NCBI GenBank assembly: GCA_947646655.1
Contig: CANSHI010000001.1
Coordinates: 1-64,000 of the forward strand
Direction of reading: 5' to 3'
Origin: an uncultured bacterium
GTDB taxonomy: Bacteria > Bacillota_I > Bacilli_A > RF39 > UBA660
DNA length: 64,000 nt
Shown here one piece after another: positions 17,615 to 41,055 of this stretch (the stretch's first letter is position 1; the number at the start of each line of letters is the position of its first letter). Under the pieces are notes generated by a model, which was not told the DNA's origin, did no database searches, and was given only the letters and a program-made list of their open reading frames with translations. The position numbers and the translations under genes are program-made.

Positions 17615-17644
17615 ATTGTAACACCCCCCCCCTAAGTTTGTCAA
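17615..17644 (-). promoter_or_regulatory. promoter with a poly-G spacer (9 G), candidate phase switch
   Basis: On the minus strand TTGACA (17644-17639) and TACAAT (17620-17615) are separated by 18 bp. The spacer contains an uninterrupted run of nine G (17632-17624). Slippage would change the spacer length. The promoter drives the interrupted surface gene 15966-17579. Confidence 0.7.
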
Positions 17645-34044: not shown

Positions 34045-35945
34045 CTAATCTGCTAATCTATAAGGATCAGTGGCAGTTCCAGTTCCTATCATCGATAAAG
34101 CTGTGTCAGAAGTTAGATTTATTACAGGAACTATACCGCCTGTCTCGTCACTATATAATGTAGATGTAGTGTAATCATAGGCGAATACCATAAATGAAGA
34201 TGCAAATTGCTCTTTGGGTGTCATTGTCCAAAATTCTTTTCCTTTATTAAGATAAAAGTTACTTGTAAGTTCAGAGCCACCAGCTATAAGGACTTCATCT
34301 GCTGATAAAGTCGCGATTGGATACTGCAATTTTCTGTTTCCTACTTCAGAATCAACAGTAAATAAATCTTGTTTTCTGTTACATGTTAATATTGGTGTAA
34401 GTTCTTCATTATTGATTAAAGTCCTTATCGTATTTATTTTAGGCTCTAATCTTTGTTTAGTATTATATTCTTGGTTTTCATTTAGACTTCTGTCATTACA
34501 AAAACCTGAATCAGCTAAATACTCTCTTAAGTTAATAGGAATATTTGTTTCGTACCAATTGTCTAATTCTTTTTTTATAGCTGAATCTTCAATATTAGAA
34601 TGTGCTTCTTCTATTGAAGTAGATGCGGTTTCTCCAGCTGGTCCATACATGTATCCTACATATTTTCTATCATTCCTATTAGTATTATATTGTTTATTTA
34701 ATAAAGCCACTCTGTCTTCACTTTTATCATTATTTTCATGTGCACTTGTTCCATCGTATGCGATCCTTAGCGATCCGTCTCCATTGATTCTTACTATTCG
34801 CCAAAATTTATCGGCAAATTTAACATAATTATTTTGAGTTTCTCCTCTATAATAATATGAAGTACCAAAATCGTCTTGCATCGAGTAAACACTTGACTTA
34901 TCTTCTGACTCAAAATTTTCAATTAAAGCAAATATACCAGCCCAAATATACGCGGTTTCGCCTTCGTTTAAATAAATCTTTATACGACTACTTTCATCAA
35001 CATTACCTAGACTTATACATTCAGAAGTATTTCCTAACTTTTTTATAAATACATCATCTAAATAAAGTTCAAAGGGAACAGATTCATATAAATAATTTGA
35101 ATAACAGAGACTCATATTACCAGATTTATTTGGAGAGAATATAGTGCTATATTCCCAATATCTACTTCCTATCTCCATGGTTAGCAGTTTTTTATCATCA
35201 ATATATTTTATATTATCGCCGTTTGCAATTTCTGATATATCAATATTTTTTAGCTCAATAAGTTTTTCATTATGATCAAATATAGGAGATAACCCAAAAA
35301 TTGGCTTACCGTCTTTTACTCCACTTGGAGTCTGTCCAGCTTTTATTGCACTTATAGCACTTTTCATTTCAAATGGTTCTTTTGATATTTCTTTTTTATC
35401 TCCTATTACAAATTGTGAAAAGAATAATGCATCTAAATCGGCAGTTTGGTCTATATTTAAATTATTTAACGTTATTATTAACTTATAGTATTTTATAGTA
35501 TTGGCTTTAATCGAGATTGCACCGATTAAAGTATGTTCACTTTTTACAGTACTCAGTGGAACATTTTTATTTTCGACTAATGGCGAGTACGGCCCATCTT
35601 CTGTCTCAGACTCTTCTAGAGTATAAGTAAGTGATCCTAAAATATAAGTGTTGACTAAATCTTTAAAATTCATGCTAACAATTGCATCAACTGATCCATT
35701 ATTTTCTAAAGTAAATGTTTTTTCAGCACTTGATCCAAAATCGAGGTTCCCTTTAAATGAGTCATTTCCATCGTTAAAAGTTATGGCAATGTTTCCCGTG
35801 TGAATAGTTAACTCTTCATTTCTTGAATTGTTTTCTATTTGAAAGTAAGCGTACGACCATAGTACACCAATCAAGATTAATGAGCAGACTATTATGCCTA
35901 AAGTTATCCCTTTTCTAATTTTTTTTGTTTTCCTTCATTTTCCAT
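34045..35945 (-). pseudogene. surface protein gene frameshifted at an A8 tract (possible phase switch)
   Basis: The ATG at 35945 has a good ribosome site (AAGGAGACTG) and a perfect promoter, but its frame stops after 13 codons. The downstream frame reads KKIRKGITLG, then a hydrophobic helix, then LWSYAYFQIEN, which is the normal N-terminus of this family. Restoring it needs one extra A in the eight-A run at 35926-35919. If in frame, the product is about 633 residues: SipW-type signal, TasA-like domain, an inserted beta region of about 150 residues (WEYSTIFSPNKSGNMSLCYS), then the lectin-like module (YYYRG, RINGDGSLRIAYDG, CNDRS, WTMTP, GIVPVIN). As assembled it is OFF unless slippage or a weak internal start rescues it. 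Confidence 0.75.
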
Positions 35946-35984
35946 AAAAAACAGTCTCCTTTTTTTTAGTCTCCTATTGTATTA

Positions 35985-36013
35985 ATTATATATTTAATAC
36001 TAGCTTTTGTCAA
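35985..36013 (-). promoter_or_regulatory. promoter of the frameshifted surface gene
   Basis: TTGACA (36013-36008), a 17-bp spacer and TATAAT (35990-35985): a consensus promoter, so transcription is not the limiting step for this gene. Confidence 0.85.
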
Positions 36014-36054
36014 ACCATTTCTAAAGGATCCGTAATAATAAGCATTGCAAAATG

Positions 36055-36080
36055 AAAAAAAGATTTCAATTTTGAAATGT
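36055..36080 (-). terminator. terminator of surface gene 36089-37663
   Basis: ATTTCAA / TTGAAAT stem and a seven-T run on the minus strand, eight bases past the stop codon. Confidence 0.8.
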
Positions 36081-36088
36081 CTCTTTTT

Positions 36089-37663
36089 CTATGGTTCTAT
36101 GTCTTTATCTCTATAAGGATTTGAGATTGTTCCATCTCCAATTAAAGTATTTACATATTCGGAAGTTAAGGAAATTACTGGAGCAATGCCACCTGGGCCA
36201 CTCGTACCATAATTGCTACTTAGTCCCCCATCGGTATAGATAAGAAGCATACTAGCAGTCCCATCATAATAACCAGGAGAGAACGACCAATACCATGCCC
36301 CTTTATATAAATAATAATTTTTATTTGCTGTACTGAACTTTCCGCTTCCCCCTGCTACTATCTCATCTGCTGTTACTAGTCCTACTTTCTCTCCTAAATT
36401 TCCATTTCCTTTTTCTACGTCTTCCTTTGTAAATGCATCATTCTTATTCGCACATATAAAGCTAGGCTGTAAAATCTTTACTGCTTCACTCCAGTACGCT
36501 CCTATTCTTGAACTTGAACCATATCCTGTTACATTTTCACCGTACCCTAATCCTGTATCAATATCCAATCCTGTTGCCTCTTTCCCTGGTGTGGTTCTAT
36601 CATTACAAAATATGTTATCACTTATATATTTGTCATATCCTTTATCTGCTATATTCGTCTTATACCAATTTTCCAATTGTATCTTTATATTTGTTTCCGT
36701 CTCGTTTCTTTGCGCTTCTTCTTTACTTGTACTCGCCTCTCCGTTTGCTCCTCCATACATATATCCTACATACTTTGTATCCGAAGTGTTCGCTGTATTC
36801 CATGCTACATTTTGTAATGCTAATCTATTCGTATCATTCGTTCCATTTTCATATGCACTTGTTCCATCATATATTATTCTTAAACTTCCGTCTCCATTTA
36901 CTCGTATTATTCTCCAGTAAAACCCTGCAAACTTCACATAGTTATCATCTACCGCTCCTCTATAATAATAGCTTGTTCCATAGTCGTCTTCCATTGTATA
37001 CAAGGCATTTGCTGTCTCGTTGGTTGTCGCAGGACTTGAAAATACTGGAGTGCCCTCTTTTACATTTTTTCCTAGCTTTGTAAGAGTCTGTTCAGATGTT
37101 ACGGAATCTTCTAGTATTCCTTCTGTAATTTTAAATTGTGTCTCTAACTTAGCTTGTAAATCTGCTGTCTGATCAAAATCTGTATATTTTAAATTTATTA
37201 TGAGCTTATAATATTTTTTTACTCCCGCTGGGATCGTTATTCCACTTACTAGACCTTTGTCTTTCGTCTCTTTTGACACTGGAACATTTTTATTTGAAAC
37301 TATTTCAGTAAACTCTCCATCTTCTGTATCAGACTCTAAAAAAGTATACGTCATAGATCCTTCTAAGTAGGTGTTTAACAAATTCATCCAACTGACACTT
37401 ACTACTCCGTCTTTTGTTCCAGTATTCTCTATTGTAAAAGTTTTCTCTGCACTCTCTCCAAAGTCTAATTCTCTATTGAATCCATTAGTCCCATCACTAA
37501 ATATTAATTCCATTGTTCCAGTTTGTACTTTCACTTCTTGATTTTTATTTTGTCCTACTTGCCCTATGAAAAAAGCATAAGATCCTAAGAATCCTACTAA
37601 TATTAAAGCACATGTGATTAAACCAATTATTACGCCCTTTTTTACATTTTTATTTTTTTCCAT
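36089..37663 (-). CDS. surface protein: TasA-like domain plus lectin-like module, poly-G promoter
   Basis: This is a 524-residue intact member of the family. It has a basic start, a hydrophobic helix and GSYAFFIGQVGQNKN (SipW-type signal, about 1-35). The TasA-like domain runs to about 175 (TGTMELIFSDGTNGFNRELDFG, TFTIENTGTKDG, LIINLKYTDFDQT). A linker (SEQTLTKLGKNVKEG) leads to one lectin-like module (about 215-515: YYYRGAVDDNYVKFAGFYWRI, RVNGDGSLRIIYDG, CNDRTTPGK, GLGYG, CANKNDAF, WSFSP, GIAPVIS). The N-terminus and promoter closely match the interrupted gene at 15966-17579. Expression is probably switched by the G11 tract in its promoter. Confidence 0.82.
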   Translation of the reverse strand: MEKNKNVKKGVIIGLITCALILVGFLGSYAFFIGQVGQNKNQEVKVQTGTMELIFSDGTNGFNRELDFGESAEKTFTIENTGTKDGVVSVSWMNLLNTYLEGSMTYTFLESDTEDGEFTEIVSNKNVPVSKETKDKGLVSGITIPAGVKKYYKLIINLKYTDFDQTADLQAKLETQFKITEGILEDSVTSEQTLTKLGKNVKEGTPVFSSPATTNETANALYTMEDDYGTSYYYRGAVDDNYVKFAGFYWRIIRVNGDGSLRIIYDGTSAYENGTNDTNRLALQNVAWNTANTSDTKYVGYMYGGANGEASTSKEEAQRNETETNIKIQLENWYKTNIADKGYDKYISDNIFCNDRTTPGKEATGLDIDTGLGYGENVTGYGSSSRIGAYWSEAVKILQPSFICANKNDAFTKEDVEKGNGNLGEKVGLVTADEIVAGGSGKFSTANKNYYLYKGAWYWSFSPGYYDGTASMLLIYTDGGLSSNYGTSGPGGIAPVISLTSEYVNTLIGDGTISNPYRDKDIEP

Positions 37664-37699: not shown

Positions 37700-37731
37700 A
37701 TTATACCACCCCCCCCCCCGGGTGTTGTCAA
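37700..37731 (-). promoter_or_regulatory. promoter with a poly-G spacer (11 G), candidate phase switch
   Basis: On the minus strand TTGACA (37731-37726) and TATAAT (37705-37700) are both perfect. They are separated by 20 bp that include 11 consecutive G (37719-37709). Loss of three G would give the optimal 17-bp spacing. The promoter serves surface gene 36089-37663. Confidence 0.8.
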
Positions 37732-37796: not shown

Positions 37797-37818
37797 GAAA
37801 AAAGGAGATATCCTCCTT
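37797..37818 (-). terminator. terminator of the peptide-export operon
   Basis: AAGGAG-N5-CTCCTT followed by T-run on the minus strand, starting at the stop codon of the last peptide gene. Confidence 0.8.
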
Positions 37819-37985
37819 CAGTTGCAATAGTTTTTGTTTTTAATCCTGCTGATAGACGATCCTATCGTTCTTCCTAAATCGACTAATACTGTTACTAGCC
37901 TCGCAATTGAATTAAAAAGTGTTGTGCTTATTCCTTTGGAAGCACCTCCTATTACTCTTATTAGTTCTTCATTAGATAATACCAT
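37818..37985 (-). CDS. double-glycine-leader peptide B (class II bacteriocin-like)
   Basis: This is a 55-residue peptide. The start ATG follows AAGAAAGGAAAATTTAC. The leader MVLSNEELIRVIGG is a standard double-glycine leader (L, E-L, I/V then GG). It predicts a 41-residue mature peptide that starts ASKGIS, has an amphipathic helix (SIARLVTVLVDLGRTIGSSI) and a basic end with one Cys (KNKNYCN). It lies 18 bases after peptide A and ends the operon. A two-peptide (class IIb) bacteriocin is the best guess. A signalling peptide is possible. Confidence 0.7.
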   Translation of the reverse strand: MVLSNEELIRVIGGASKGISTTLFNSIARLVTVLVDLGRTIGSSISRIKNKNYCN

Positions 37986-38003
37986 GTAAATTTTCCTTTC
38001 TTT

Positions 38004-38162
38004 TTATTTTATTTTTCGCATATTACATTTAGTCGGGTTTAAATAGCCATCGATAAATCCTGCGATTAGAGATACCAAAGCTCCAATGCCTGCTACAAGT
38101 CCATAAACCCAGCCTGATCCTCCACCTTGGATGTTTGCAAGCTCATTTTCTGTTAATTTCAT
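38004..38162 (-). CDS. double-glycine-leader peptide A (class II bacteriocin-like)
   Basis: This is a 52-residue peptide whose ATG follows AGAAAGGATGGAACAT. It overlaps the end of the transporter gene by 20 bp. The leader MKLTENELANIQGG is a canonical double-glycine leader. The mature part of 38 residues has a W-V-Y start, then GLVAGIGALVSLIAGFIDGY with GxxxG spacing typical of class IIb helix-helix partners, and a basic tail with one Cys (PTKCNMRKIK). The C39 transporter immediately upstream would cleave after GG and export it. Confidence 0.75.
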   Translation of the reverse strand: MKLTENELANIQGGGSGWVYGLVAGIGALVSLIAGFIDGYLNPTKCNMRKIK

Positions 38163-40185
38163 ATGTTCCATCCTTTCTAAAGTTTACAATAGTTTTAAAC
38201 GTTTTTTCTTTGTTGCGGTGCGTGATGTAGATTAAAGACATATTTTCGATCGATAATAGATTTTTAAGAATAGATTCTTCCATATTTTCATTAACACTGG
38301 ACAAAGTCTCATCGATAATTAGTATTTGAGGTTTTTTGTAGAGCGCTCTTGCTAAGATAAGTCGAGCTCGCTCTCCGCCTGACAGATTGGATGCACCCTC
38401 TAGTACTGTGGTATGTTCTTTATCTCTACGTTTATTTATAACTTCATCTAATAATGTAATATTAGAAATATATTGAAATCTATCCATATCATAGTCATCT
38501 AAAGTGACATTTTCTAAAATCGATTTTCTAAATATTTTTTCTTCTTGACCTATGTATATCAAATAAGACCTTAAAGAATCGATTGAAATGTCCTTAATGT
38601 TTTTATCATTGAGGGTTATATACCCTTCGTATTTATCTAATAGACCACATAGGCATTTTACTAAAGTACTCTTTCCTATTCCACTTGGGCCTTTGATTAA
38701 AATCTTCTCGCCTTTTTTAAATTGGAAATTAAAGTTTCTAAGTTGATAATGTATTCGATCATATGAGAACGATAAGCTTTTAATTTTAAGATCTGTAAAA
38801 GGTTTATTGTAATTTGGGATAATTCTTTCTTCTCGGACATCATTAAATTCACATATGTTTCTGAATATAGCTTTTCCTTTGAGAAAATATTCGAAGGTAG
38901 TAGTTAAACCTTCAAACGAGAGGAAAAATAAGGAAAATATAGATTCATATGTTATGAGGTCTAAGAAAGTAAATGATTCGCTGATACTTAAATAGCCAAC
39001 TAAACCGATACATAAAATACCAATGTCAAATAATAAAGTTTTAATAAATTTTATACGATGATTAGTTGAATTACTATTTAGACGAACATTTGTATAATTT
39101 TTAAGGGTATCTGTTATGTATTTTAAAAAGAAATTTGTGGCATTTAAATTTTTGATACTTTCTAAACCGTCTAAGTATTCAACTAGTGTTCCCGAATAAT
39201 CATTGTATGTTTTCAAACATTTTTTCTCATTTTTATATAAAATATTTTGTGTAAAAATTGTAATAAAGGTGTATAATATTAGTATAGTCGAATATATGAA
39301 TGTCAATTTTGTAGACAGTATAAGTAAAATCGGATACAAAATGACGATTGTCAATAGATCTAAACTATTGATTATGAAAAGTCTTATGAGTAAGTCTTTT
39401 ATAAAAGTCATATCTTCGATTTTTTTTACTATTTCACCGACTCGTTTATTATGTAAATATTTAATCGGTAATTTAAAAATATGAGATGTAAAATTTTTTA
39501 GAGACTCATCATCAATATATTTTATAACTTTTTCTAACACATTTTCTTTAAAGAGAGTCATGCTGTTGGCAAAAATTCGGCATAAAATTAATACACACGT
39601 TATGAAAATAGGACTTGCTATTTTTAAATTTAAAAGTTTTAGTTGAAAACTAGTTATTAAATTTAATAATAAAATTAATATACAAGAAAATGCAACAATG
39701 ACTATACTGATCTTTTTCTCTTTGATTAGAGGAAAAAATGTTTTGATCAATGATTTACTTTTTTTGAATTTAGGAATTTCACCACGAGAAGTAACAACGA
39801 TCGTGTTTTTTGTAAAAATTTTTCTAAATTCCTCTACAGAATATATTTTTTTACCGTATTCGGGATCCATGGTTAGGATAGTATTTTCTTTTATTTCATA
39901 TATGACAAGAAAATGTTCATAACCATTTTTTAATATATGACCTATTATAGGAAGCTTATTTTTATCAATTTTGTCTAAAGAGATCTTTAAACCATAAGCA
40001 TCAAACCCATATTTTTTTAAGGCTTCTACTAGATTTAGAGCGGATGTTCCTGATGTCGTTGTATTTGTATCTTCTAAAACCAATTCGAGAGGTACATAGC
40101 CGTCATAAAAAGATACAATACTTTGAATACACTTAGCTCCGCATGAAGAAATGTCATCTTGGATAAATATGTCTTTATTTTTCAT
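38143..40185 (-). CDS. peptidase-C39 ABC transporter for double-glycine peptides
   Basis: This 680-residue export ATPase is of the LagD/ComA/NukT type. The N-terminal C39 peptidase has Cys15 in SSCGAKC, His91 in GYEHFLV and Asp107 in MDPEYG. Six membrane helices lie between about 155 and 430. The ATPase has a Walker A near 498-505 (GPSGIGKST), LSGGERARLILARAL, and ILIIDETLSS. It cleaves leaders after GG and exports the peptides. The ATG follows GAGGTGGTGATTTT. No HlyD-like accessory gene is present, and no immunity gene is recognisable downstream. Confidence 0.93.
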   Translation of the reverse strand: MKNKDIFIQDDISSCGAKCIQSIVSFYDGYVPLELVLEDTNTTTSGTSALNLVEALKKYGFDAYGLKISLDKIDKNKLPIIGHILKNGYEHFLVIYEIKENTILTMDPEYGKKIYSVEEFRKIFTKNTIVVTSRGEIPKFKKSKSLIKTFFPLIKEKKISIVIVAFSCILILLLNLITSFQLKLLNLKIASPIFITCVLILCRIFANSMTLFKENVLEKVIKYIDDESLKNFTSHIFKLPIKYLHNKRVGEIVKKIEDMTFIKDLLIRLFIINSLDLLTIVILYPILLILSTKLTFIYSTILILYTFITIFTQNILYKNEKKCLKTYNDYSGTLVEYLDGLESIKNLNATNFFLKYITDTLKNYTNVRLNSNSTNHRIKFIKTLLFDIGILCIGLVGYLSISESFTFLDLITYESIFSLFFLSFEGLTTTFEYFLKGKAIFRNICEFNDVREERIIPNYNKPFTDLKIKSLSFSYDRIHYQLRNFNFQFKKGEKILIKGPSGIGKSTLVKCLCGLLDKYEGYITLNDKNIKDISIDSLRSYLIYIGQEEKIFRKSILENVTLDDYDMDRFQYISNITLLDEVINKRRDKEHTTVLEGASNLSGGERARLILARALYKKPQILIIDETLSSVNENMEESILKNLLSIENMSLIYITHRNKEKTFKTIVNFRKDGTYEINRK

Positions 40186-40204
40186 AAAATCACCACCTCA
40201 ATAA

Positions 40205-40258
40205 TTAAAAGAATATTGTTACTAATAATTTAATAATTTTCATTACTTTGAAAAACAT
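40205..40258 (-). CDS. 17-residue cationic hydrophobic peptide 2
   Basis: MFFKVMKIIKLLVTIFF, preceded by the strong site AAAAGGAGGTAAATAAA. It aligns without gaps with peptide 1 (9 of 17 identical, the rest mostly conservative). Lysines at 4, 7 and 10 lie on one helical face and the rest is hydrophobic. There is no leader. It lies 19 bases upstream of the transporter start. It could be a leaderless membrane-active or signalling peptide. Too short for homology to decide. Confidence 0.6.
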   Translation of the reverse strand: MFFKVMKIIKLLVTIFF

Positions 40259-40295
40259 TTTATTTACCTCCTTTTCTAGATTGCTTTATTTCTTA

Positions 40296-40349
40296 TTAGA
40301 AGAAAAACATTACGATATATTTAACAATTTTTATAATTTTGTAAAACAT
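40296..40349 (-). CDS. 17-residue cationic hydrophobic peptide 1
   Basis: MFYKIIKIVKYIVMFFF, preceded by GGAAAGGAGATG. It is the first gene after the shared promoter element and is followed by TAATAA. Its length, Lys spacing and FF end are the same as in peptide 2, 37 bp downstream. The conserved pattern with different codons argues that both are translated genes rather than chance frames. Confidence 0.6.
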   Translation of the reverse strand: MFYKIIKIVKYIVMFFF

Positions 40350-40386
40350 ATTAATTACATCTCCTTTCCTTACCTCTCTACTCATT

Positions 40387-40416
40387 ATTATACCGGACAG
40401 ATTTTATTTTTCTCAT
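40387..40416 (-). promoter_or_regulatory. promoter-like element of the peptide-export operon, shared with recA
   Basis: On the minus strand it reads ATGAGAAAAAT, eight bases, then TCCGGTATAAT. It is 27/30 identical to 3152-3181 upstream of recA. The TATAAT lies about 38 bp before the start of the first 17-residue peptide. No standard -35 box is present. Confidence 0.6.
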
Positions 40417-40574
40417 GCATTTTAAAAAAAAGTGGCATTTGTGCATACAAATGTACTTAAACAAGATACTTATAATATTTTGACAAAAAACTAAATTTTA
40501 AAGTTTGTATTATTGAACACTTTTATTTCTTTTATTTGACAAAATGAGTAATTGGCAAATAACTTGTTATACAC

Positions 40575-40629: not shown

Positions 40630-41055
40630 TTACAAGCATTCAACACATGTATCGTTTAAACATCTTATACTACAAACACAGTCAAGGTTGATAGTAAAGA
40701 AACTGTTTGTACTTACATATGGATAAAGACCTGTATCTTCTGTGTTTGGTGCCAATACTCTAAATGTTGCTGCGTTACATTCTAGTTTTTCTATTCTGAA
40801 TACATTAGAACATTGTGATGGATCTGTACAAGTTGTAATATCTTTGCTTATTGGCATAGATATTGGATTTTGTCCACTTGCGCAGCATGAATACAACATT
40901 ATAGGTCTAGTGTTACAGACACAACAAGTTGTACCGCAGCCAAGAACTGGTTTATCACATGATTCTAAGCAAGCCTCAGGGCCAGAAGCGTTTTGTTGTA
41001 AGATAAGTATTACTTGTAATATTTCAGCTATACCACTATTTTCATTATTAGACAT
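40630..41055 (-). CDS. CotY/CotZ-type spore coat protein
   Basis: This 141-residue protein has 16 cysteines. The start GIAEILQVILILQ, then NTRPIMLYSCC, NVFRIEKLECNAATFRVL and TNSFFTINLDCVCSIRCL match the CotY/CotZ family that forms the disulfide-linked crust or exosporium base layer of spores. A Cys-rich stretch (GCGTTCCVC) replaces the usual Cys-His region. It is expressed from a sigma-K-like promoter at 41085-41111, which fits late mother-cell synthesis. Confidence 0.88.
   Translation of the reverse strand: MSNNENSGIAEILQVILILQQNASGPEACLESCDKPVLGCGTTCCVCNTRPIMLYSCCASGQNPISMPISKDITTCTDPSQCSNVFRIEKLECNAATFRVLAPNTEDTGLYPYVSTNSFFTINLDCVCSIRCLNDTCVECL

Follow-up and report, generated by a model that had tools for sequence, protein, structure and literature searches.

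The window, a 64,000-nucleotide stretch of DNA from an uncultured bacterium of the order RF39, encodes a compact peptide export operon in which a peptidase-containing ABC exporter is followed by two short double-glycine peptides, A and B, and this pair recurs, conserved in sequence, across nearly the whole family. On balance, A and B probably represent a class IIb-like membrane-active pair that is vertically inherited as a core trait of the family, and not a strain-variable bacteriocin. The parts are of a known kind, a PCAT exporter combined with a two-peptide double-glycine system. New, and absent from the open-access literature searched, are the family-wide, fixed and conserved pair, the near-invariant C-terminal cysteines of both peptides, a third small protein (C) that seems to mimic B, and a set of upstream 17-residue peptides (17-mers); no paper describing this two-peptide system in RF39-type bacteria was found in this literature. 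The order RF39 (class Bacilli) is described as a group of uncultured bacteria with thin walls and small genomes, which mostly dwell in the gut and some of which sporulate (PMC10868615, PMC7301438). The host genome measures approximately 1.4 Mb, and the family comprises at least 148 sampled genera with genomes of 0.4-1.8 Mb.

All parts of the locus listed by the initial annotation are present on the minus strand. Two 17-mers, MFYKIIKIVKYIVMFFF (no. 1; 40296..40349) and MFFKVMKIIKLLVTIFF (no. 2; 40205..40258; 53% identical to no. 1), each with its own Shine-Dalgarno sequence, precede a C39 peptidase-containing ABC transporter of 680 aa (38143..40185), which is followed by peptide A (38004..38162; 52 aa, mature part GSGWVYGLVAGIGALVSLIAGFIDGYLNPTKCNMRKIK) and peptide B (37818..37985; 55 aa, mature part ASKGISTTLFNSIARLVTVLVDLGRTIGSSISRIKNKNYCN). 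The exporter and A do overlap, by 20 nt and not by the 29 nt originally annotated, since A most likely starts at 38162, which agrees better with Shine-Dalgarno spacing and the leader length of the family than 38171 does. An intrinsic terminator hairpin with an 8-pair stem and a T-tract (37801..37819) lies directly 3' of B, a separate terminator (40599-40581) serves the gene upstream of the operon, and a TATAAT box (40392-40387) stands ahead of the first 17-mer; on these grounds, the two 17-mers, exporter, A and B are likely to form a single self-contained transcription unit, as predicted from terminators and -10 box. This box is part of a promoter-like site (40387..40416; ATGAGA, 18 nt, TATAAT) with a strong -10 and a weak -35 element, which is a consensus match only; promoter-like sites show no enrichment over shuffled sequences, and the region contains 4 terminator-like sites where 0.5 would be expected. 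The unit includes no recognisable immunity gene and no gene for a HlyD-like protein, the terminator-bounded unit contains no modification enzyme of the kind sought as a test for lantibiotics and other modified RiPPs, and an Rfam search of the region returned no RNA element. A near-palindrome, ATTTGTGCATACAAAT, at 40437-40452, upstream of the -10 box of the operon, is a possible operator. The gene directly upstream (40630-41055, minus strand) encodes a CotZ-like spore coat protein according to Pfam, in a host lineage with small genomes.

The exporter matches the Pfam families Peptidase_C39, ABC_membrane and ABC_tran far above cut-off, and its closest solved relatives in the PDB are PCAT1 (first, E 1e-63) and ComA (second). 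It combines in one chain a C39 peptidase, whose Cys, His and Asp align with the catalytic residues of PCAT1, with a TMD and an NBD, which is the composition of a PCAT. The window's genome contains no second full-length homologue of the exporter, the other 12 matches being partial and of ABC type. PCAT1-type exporters act as single-chain homodimers. The lack of a HlyD-like partner, pointed out by the initial annotation, is real and extends to the window's genus; such accessory export proteins are usual, though not universal, in class IIb systems, and the absence is not odd by itself, because the best matches of the exporter are the stand-alone PCAT1 and ComA. Like the PCAT1-CtA system, the locus combines a stand-alone C39-ABC exporter with double-glycine substrates, and PCAT1 is its closest solved relative, but the two are distant in sequence and the mature parts of their substrates are unrelated, the A and B profiles matching CtA at the leader only (E 0.2-0.7). 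The ComA/ComC, Rtg and Blp loci of streptococci likewise pair a PCAT exporter with double-glycine peptides; in contrast to these, no adjacent sensor or regulator was seen here, and the substrates are two conserved membrane-type peptides instead of a pheromone.

Both peptides begin with a double-glycine leader of the form M..L...EL..I.GG, followed by mature parts of the originally proposed 38 (A) and 41 (B) residues with net charges of +3 and +5, respectively. As also claimed, A and B of the window each carry one Cys near the C-terminus of the mature part. The earlier assignment of GxxxG-type motifs to one peptide was mistaken, as they occur in both (A: GLVAG and GFIDG; B: GRTIG). These features are shared throughout the family: GxxxG was found in 59 of 61 mature A and 61 of 61 mature B peptides (shuffle expectation 0.46 and 0.24), and a Cys is located within the last eight residues of 60 of 61 A and 61 of 61 B peptides. 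In alignments of 50 peptides each, G, P and Cys residues are invariant in A, and GxxxG and Cys are invariant in B. A check against bacteriocin models, which the initial annotation had called for, gave a divided outcome: peptide A scores 26.1 bits with the NCBIfam class IIb model TIGR03949 (lactobin A/cerein 7B; cut-off 21.5), whereas peptide B of the window does not match TIGR03949 and stays below the cut-off of every NCBIfam bacteriocin model touched. Family-wide, 41 of 50 A and 8 of 50 B peptides match TIGR03949 at E <= 0.01. Neither profile has a significant match among PDB chains. The locus shares with class IIb bacteriocins (TIGR03949; lactococcin G/enterocin 1071 families) an adjacent pair of short cationic peptides with double-glycine leaders, GxxxG in both and a dedicated C39-ABC exporter in the same unit. 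It differs from them in that the pair is near-universal in one family, single-copy and under purifying selection, in the near-invariant single C-terminal Cys of both peptides, and in that the window's genus has neither a linked immunity gene nor an accessory protein. One locus of a relative (L055) contains a second A/B-type pair in tandem downstream of the exporter (genome G053), in which the Cys is moved in both peptides, to the inside of the helix in B2 and next to GxxxG in A2, which hints at coupled cysteines.

An exporter search of 117 relatives identified a full-length homologue in nearly every family genome. Among the 71 loci taken for comparison, approximately 62 contain A and directly then B behind the exporter, and most of the loci without the pair are cut by contig ends or derive from other families. 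The B profile was detected in 223 of 243 family genomes and 141 of 148 genera, nearly always in one copy, including 8 of 9 genomes of the window's genus and 162 of 171 good genomes (about 95%; good genomes having a completeness of 90% or more and a contamination of 5% or less). In samples of 395 genomes from the class and 295 from the phylum, full-length B matches are confined to the family, and genomes outside it match the leader part only. The gene rpsU, often as rpsU-yqeY, neighbours the operon in 25 loci, and cca does so in the window's genus; in 9 of 9 testable cases, the same-genus partner gave the best exporter match. These conserved neighbours and same-genus matches argue for vertical descent, and the operon is apparently an inherited core trait of the family. 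A horizontal or plasmid origin was also considered and is disfavoured by synteny and distribution, with no B homologue identified on plasmids. A scan for relatives returned none from viral contigs and only distant ABC proteins from genome contigs. One species of the window's genus (G007) encodes two exporter and A/B loci of different subtypes (L051 and L052). Furthermore, another family with small genomes (f4; G072, G650 and others) encodes ORFs of 70-140 aa whose start matches the leader region of B and which are perhaps other double-glycine substrates.

Directly downstream of the operon, the window encodes two tandem large secreted or surface proteins (34045-37663, minus strand), which stand between the operon and cca, the gene that adjoins the operon in other species of the genus. 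The N-terminus of the nearer protein faintly resembles Peptidase_M73/camelysin. Poly-G tracts of 9-12 G located by a TATAAT box (window 37700-37731, minus strand; G000:C1:117132, C13:20420, C19:7192 and C18:7069) precede five paralogous surface proteins of approximately 480-524 aa with a camelysin-like N-terminus, and in three of the five genes TTGACA and TATAAT flank the tract, the spacers measuring 19-21 nt. To judge from this arrangement, the sites look like a set of phase-variable promoters. A further poly-G tract of 9 bases is located at 17624-17632 of the window (minus strand).

Loci of relatives contain additional genes that are lacking in the window. Approximately 35 of 64 loci have a gene between the exporter and A whose product measures about 120-170 residues and carries a TM segment at its N-terminus. 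This protein has neither a Pfam match nor a HlyD family assignment and is possibly a short adaptor-type accessory. Gene C, identified in approximately 26 of 58 loci, encodes 34-62 residues and overlaps the end of B, usually by 13 or 16 nt and in the same relative frame. Its product has a basic N-terminus, a TM segment and an invariant GxxxG that is mostly followed by R, and its profile matches that of B exactly over the GxxxG..R segment (probability 89%, E 2e-6; one extra Met in the first row of the C alignment leaves the result unaffected). C-profile matches were found in 97 of 243 genomes and 69 of 148 genera, some of the weaker ones being B itself or unrelated TM proteins, and where positions were compared, C lies directly behind B. 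C matches no known immunity family in Pfam or NCBIfam. The simplest reading of its similarity to B is that C is a membrane-held mimic of B, which may pair with A or cap the complex, making it an immunity candidate. The window's genus is without both C and the TM protein, and homologues of either are absent from the window's genome, which gave only weak TM-type matches; an immunity or accessory gene moved elsewhere in this genome was searched for and not found. The statement of the initial annotation that the operon has no recognisable immunity gene is borne out, unlike in class IIb systems, for which linkage of immunity and structural genes is described as invariable (PMC5093712).

In place of these genes, the window's genus has the 17-mers, which are candidates for the linked immunity function that the operon otherwise lacks. 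One or two ORFs of 17-22 codons with Shine-Dalgarno sequences lie 60-185 nt upstream of the exporter in 7 of 7 genus loci with enough upstream sequence, against a shuffled-region expectation of 0.03, and position, size and Shine-Dalgarno sequence of 17-mer no. 1 are conserved in the genus. No comparable short upstream peptides were seen in other genera. Comparing the 17-mers of two close species reveals three codon changes that are synonymous and two that are nonsynonymous. The peptides are both cationic and hydrophobic, and their helical moments are moderate (0.3-0.5). Phenol-soluble modulins of the PSM alpha type are leaderless, short, cationic, and amphipathic to hydrophobic. The 17-mers resemble them in all these respects, a likeness of composition only, but their operon contains no Pmt exporter. 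They may serve in producer protection, as further leaderless membrane-active peptides, or in regulation.

Mature A and B are under purifying and not diversifying selection. Across 20 same-genus pairs, pN/pS was lowest in mature B (0.29), followed by mature A (0.37), the exporter (0.40) and the leaders (approximately 0.5), ratios that are rough as synonymous differences are near saturation in many pairs. Distances among mature A peptides correlate with those among mature B peptides (Mantel r 0.54, and 0.50 with exporter distance removed; p 0.0005), as expected for partners, and this co-divergence is an indirect hint that both peptides may be needed for antibacterial activity. Conservation of this kind across a family is unlike an arms race and fits a signal or a self-directed role equally well. 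The main rival explanation, to which we assign a minor share of the probability, holds that A and B serve as a conserved pair in communication or development rather than as a weapon, with a function in quorum sensing, differentiation or sporulation, and that a conserved receptor accounts for their conservation. In its favour, the pair is near-universal, single-copy and under purifying selection, about half of the loci have no adjacent immunity candidate, and PCAT exporters also export signals (PMC7018657). On the other hand, no recurrent sensor or regulator gene was identified beside the locus in the stretches read, peptide A scores as a class IIb bacteriocin, and two peptides that co-diverge and combine GxxxG with long hydrophobic stretches are more in keeping with membrane insertion than with receptor ligands.

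The proposal of the initial annotation that the locus is likely a class IIb bacteriocin holds with regard to its anatomy and the TIGR03949 fit of A, but a plain bacteriocin leaves a near-universal, single-copy, conserved pair unexplained. That it is an ordinary strain-level class IIb bacteriocin, whose immunity gene was lost in the window genome or missed, appears improbable. The anatomy and the TIGR03949 match speak for it, as does the usual linkage between immunity and structural genes in class IIb systems (PMC5093712), yet the immunity-less gene order recurs in the genus loci and in many other genera, homologues of C or of the accessory protein are absent elsewhere in the genome and plasmids carry no homologue of B, and the distribution is near-universal and partly syntenic instead of patchy.

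Under the favoured reading as a class IIb-like membrane-active pair, the C39 domain would recognise the EL..I.GG leaders of A and B and cut after GG, and the ABC exporter would release both peptides, as suggested by the intact domains and catalytic residues. Once secreted, A, which is hydrophobic and of membrane-spanning length, and B, which is amphipathic and cationic, would meet via their conserved GxxxG faces and might be locked by a disulfide between the near-invariant C-terminal cysteines, although this bond is a guess. The pair would then insert into the membranes of nearby bacteria and cause them to leak, giving it a pore-forming, antibacterial function that would be old and kept by purifying selection in a small-genome family. 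In about half of the genera, C would probably keep the producer safe, either as a pairing partner of A or as a block on the A-B complex; in the window's genus, which is without C, this role could fall to the 17-mers, to target specificity or to something else. Weighing against this reading, many loci, that of the window among them, carry neither C nor another immunity gene that can be recognised, an unusual situation for a killing peptide. We see little chance that the pair instead acts on the envelope of the producer or its siblings or on host epithelium (fratricide, adhesion or nutrient release), with the killing of others as a side effect: predictions for RF39-type bacteria include a dependence on scavenged muropeptides and nutrients (PMC10868615, PMC7301438), and an obligatory immunity gene is lacking, but nothing in the locus suggests a host or self target.

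A more specific version of the favoured reading, which we put forward tentatively and regard as rather doubtful in its full extent, is a fixed, vertically inherited and disulfide-linkable two-peptide membrane attack system in nearly the whole family, with protection, where present, by a small membrane protein mimicking B and with tandem 17-mers as its genus-level replacement. The system is small enough to be synthesised: A and B have about 40 mature residues each, the candidate immunity protein has about 50, and the 17-mers are shorter still. As a rule, bacteriocins are patchily distributed, change fast and come with immunity genes. Conservation of the pair in approximately 95% of good genomes of a large uncultured family would imply that membrane attack, or whichever other function the peptides have, belongs to the basic biology of the lineage. 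If a fixed family-wide attack system is indeed present, antagonism would be a fixed way of living for these bacteria, for example by freeing nutrients from their neighbours, and not a strain-variable weapon.
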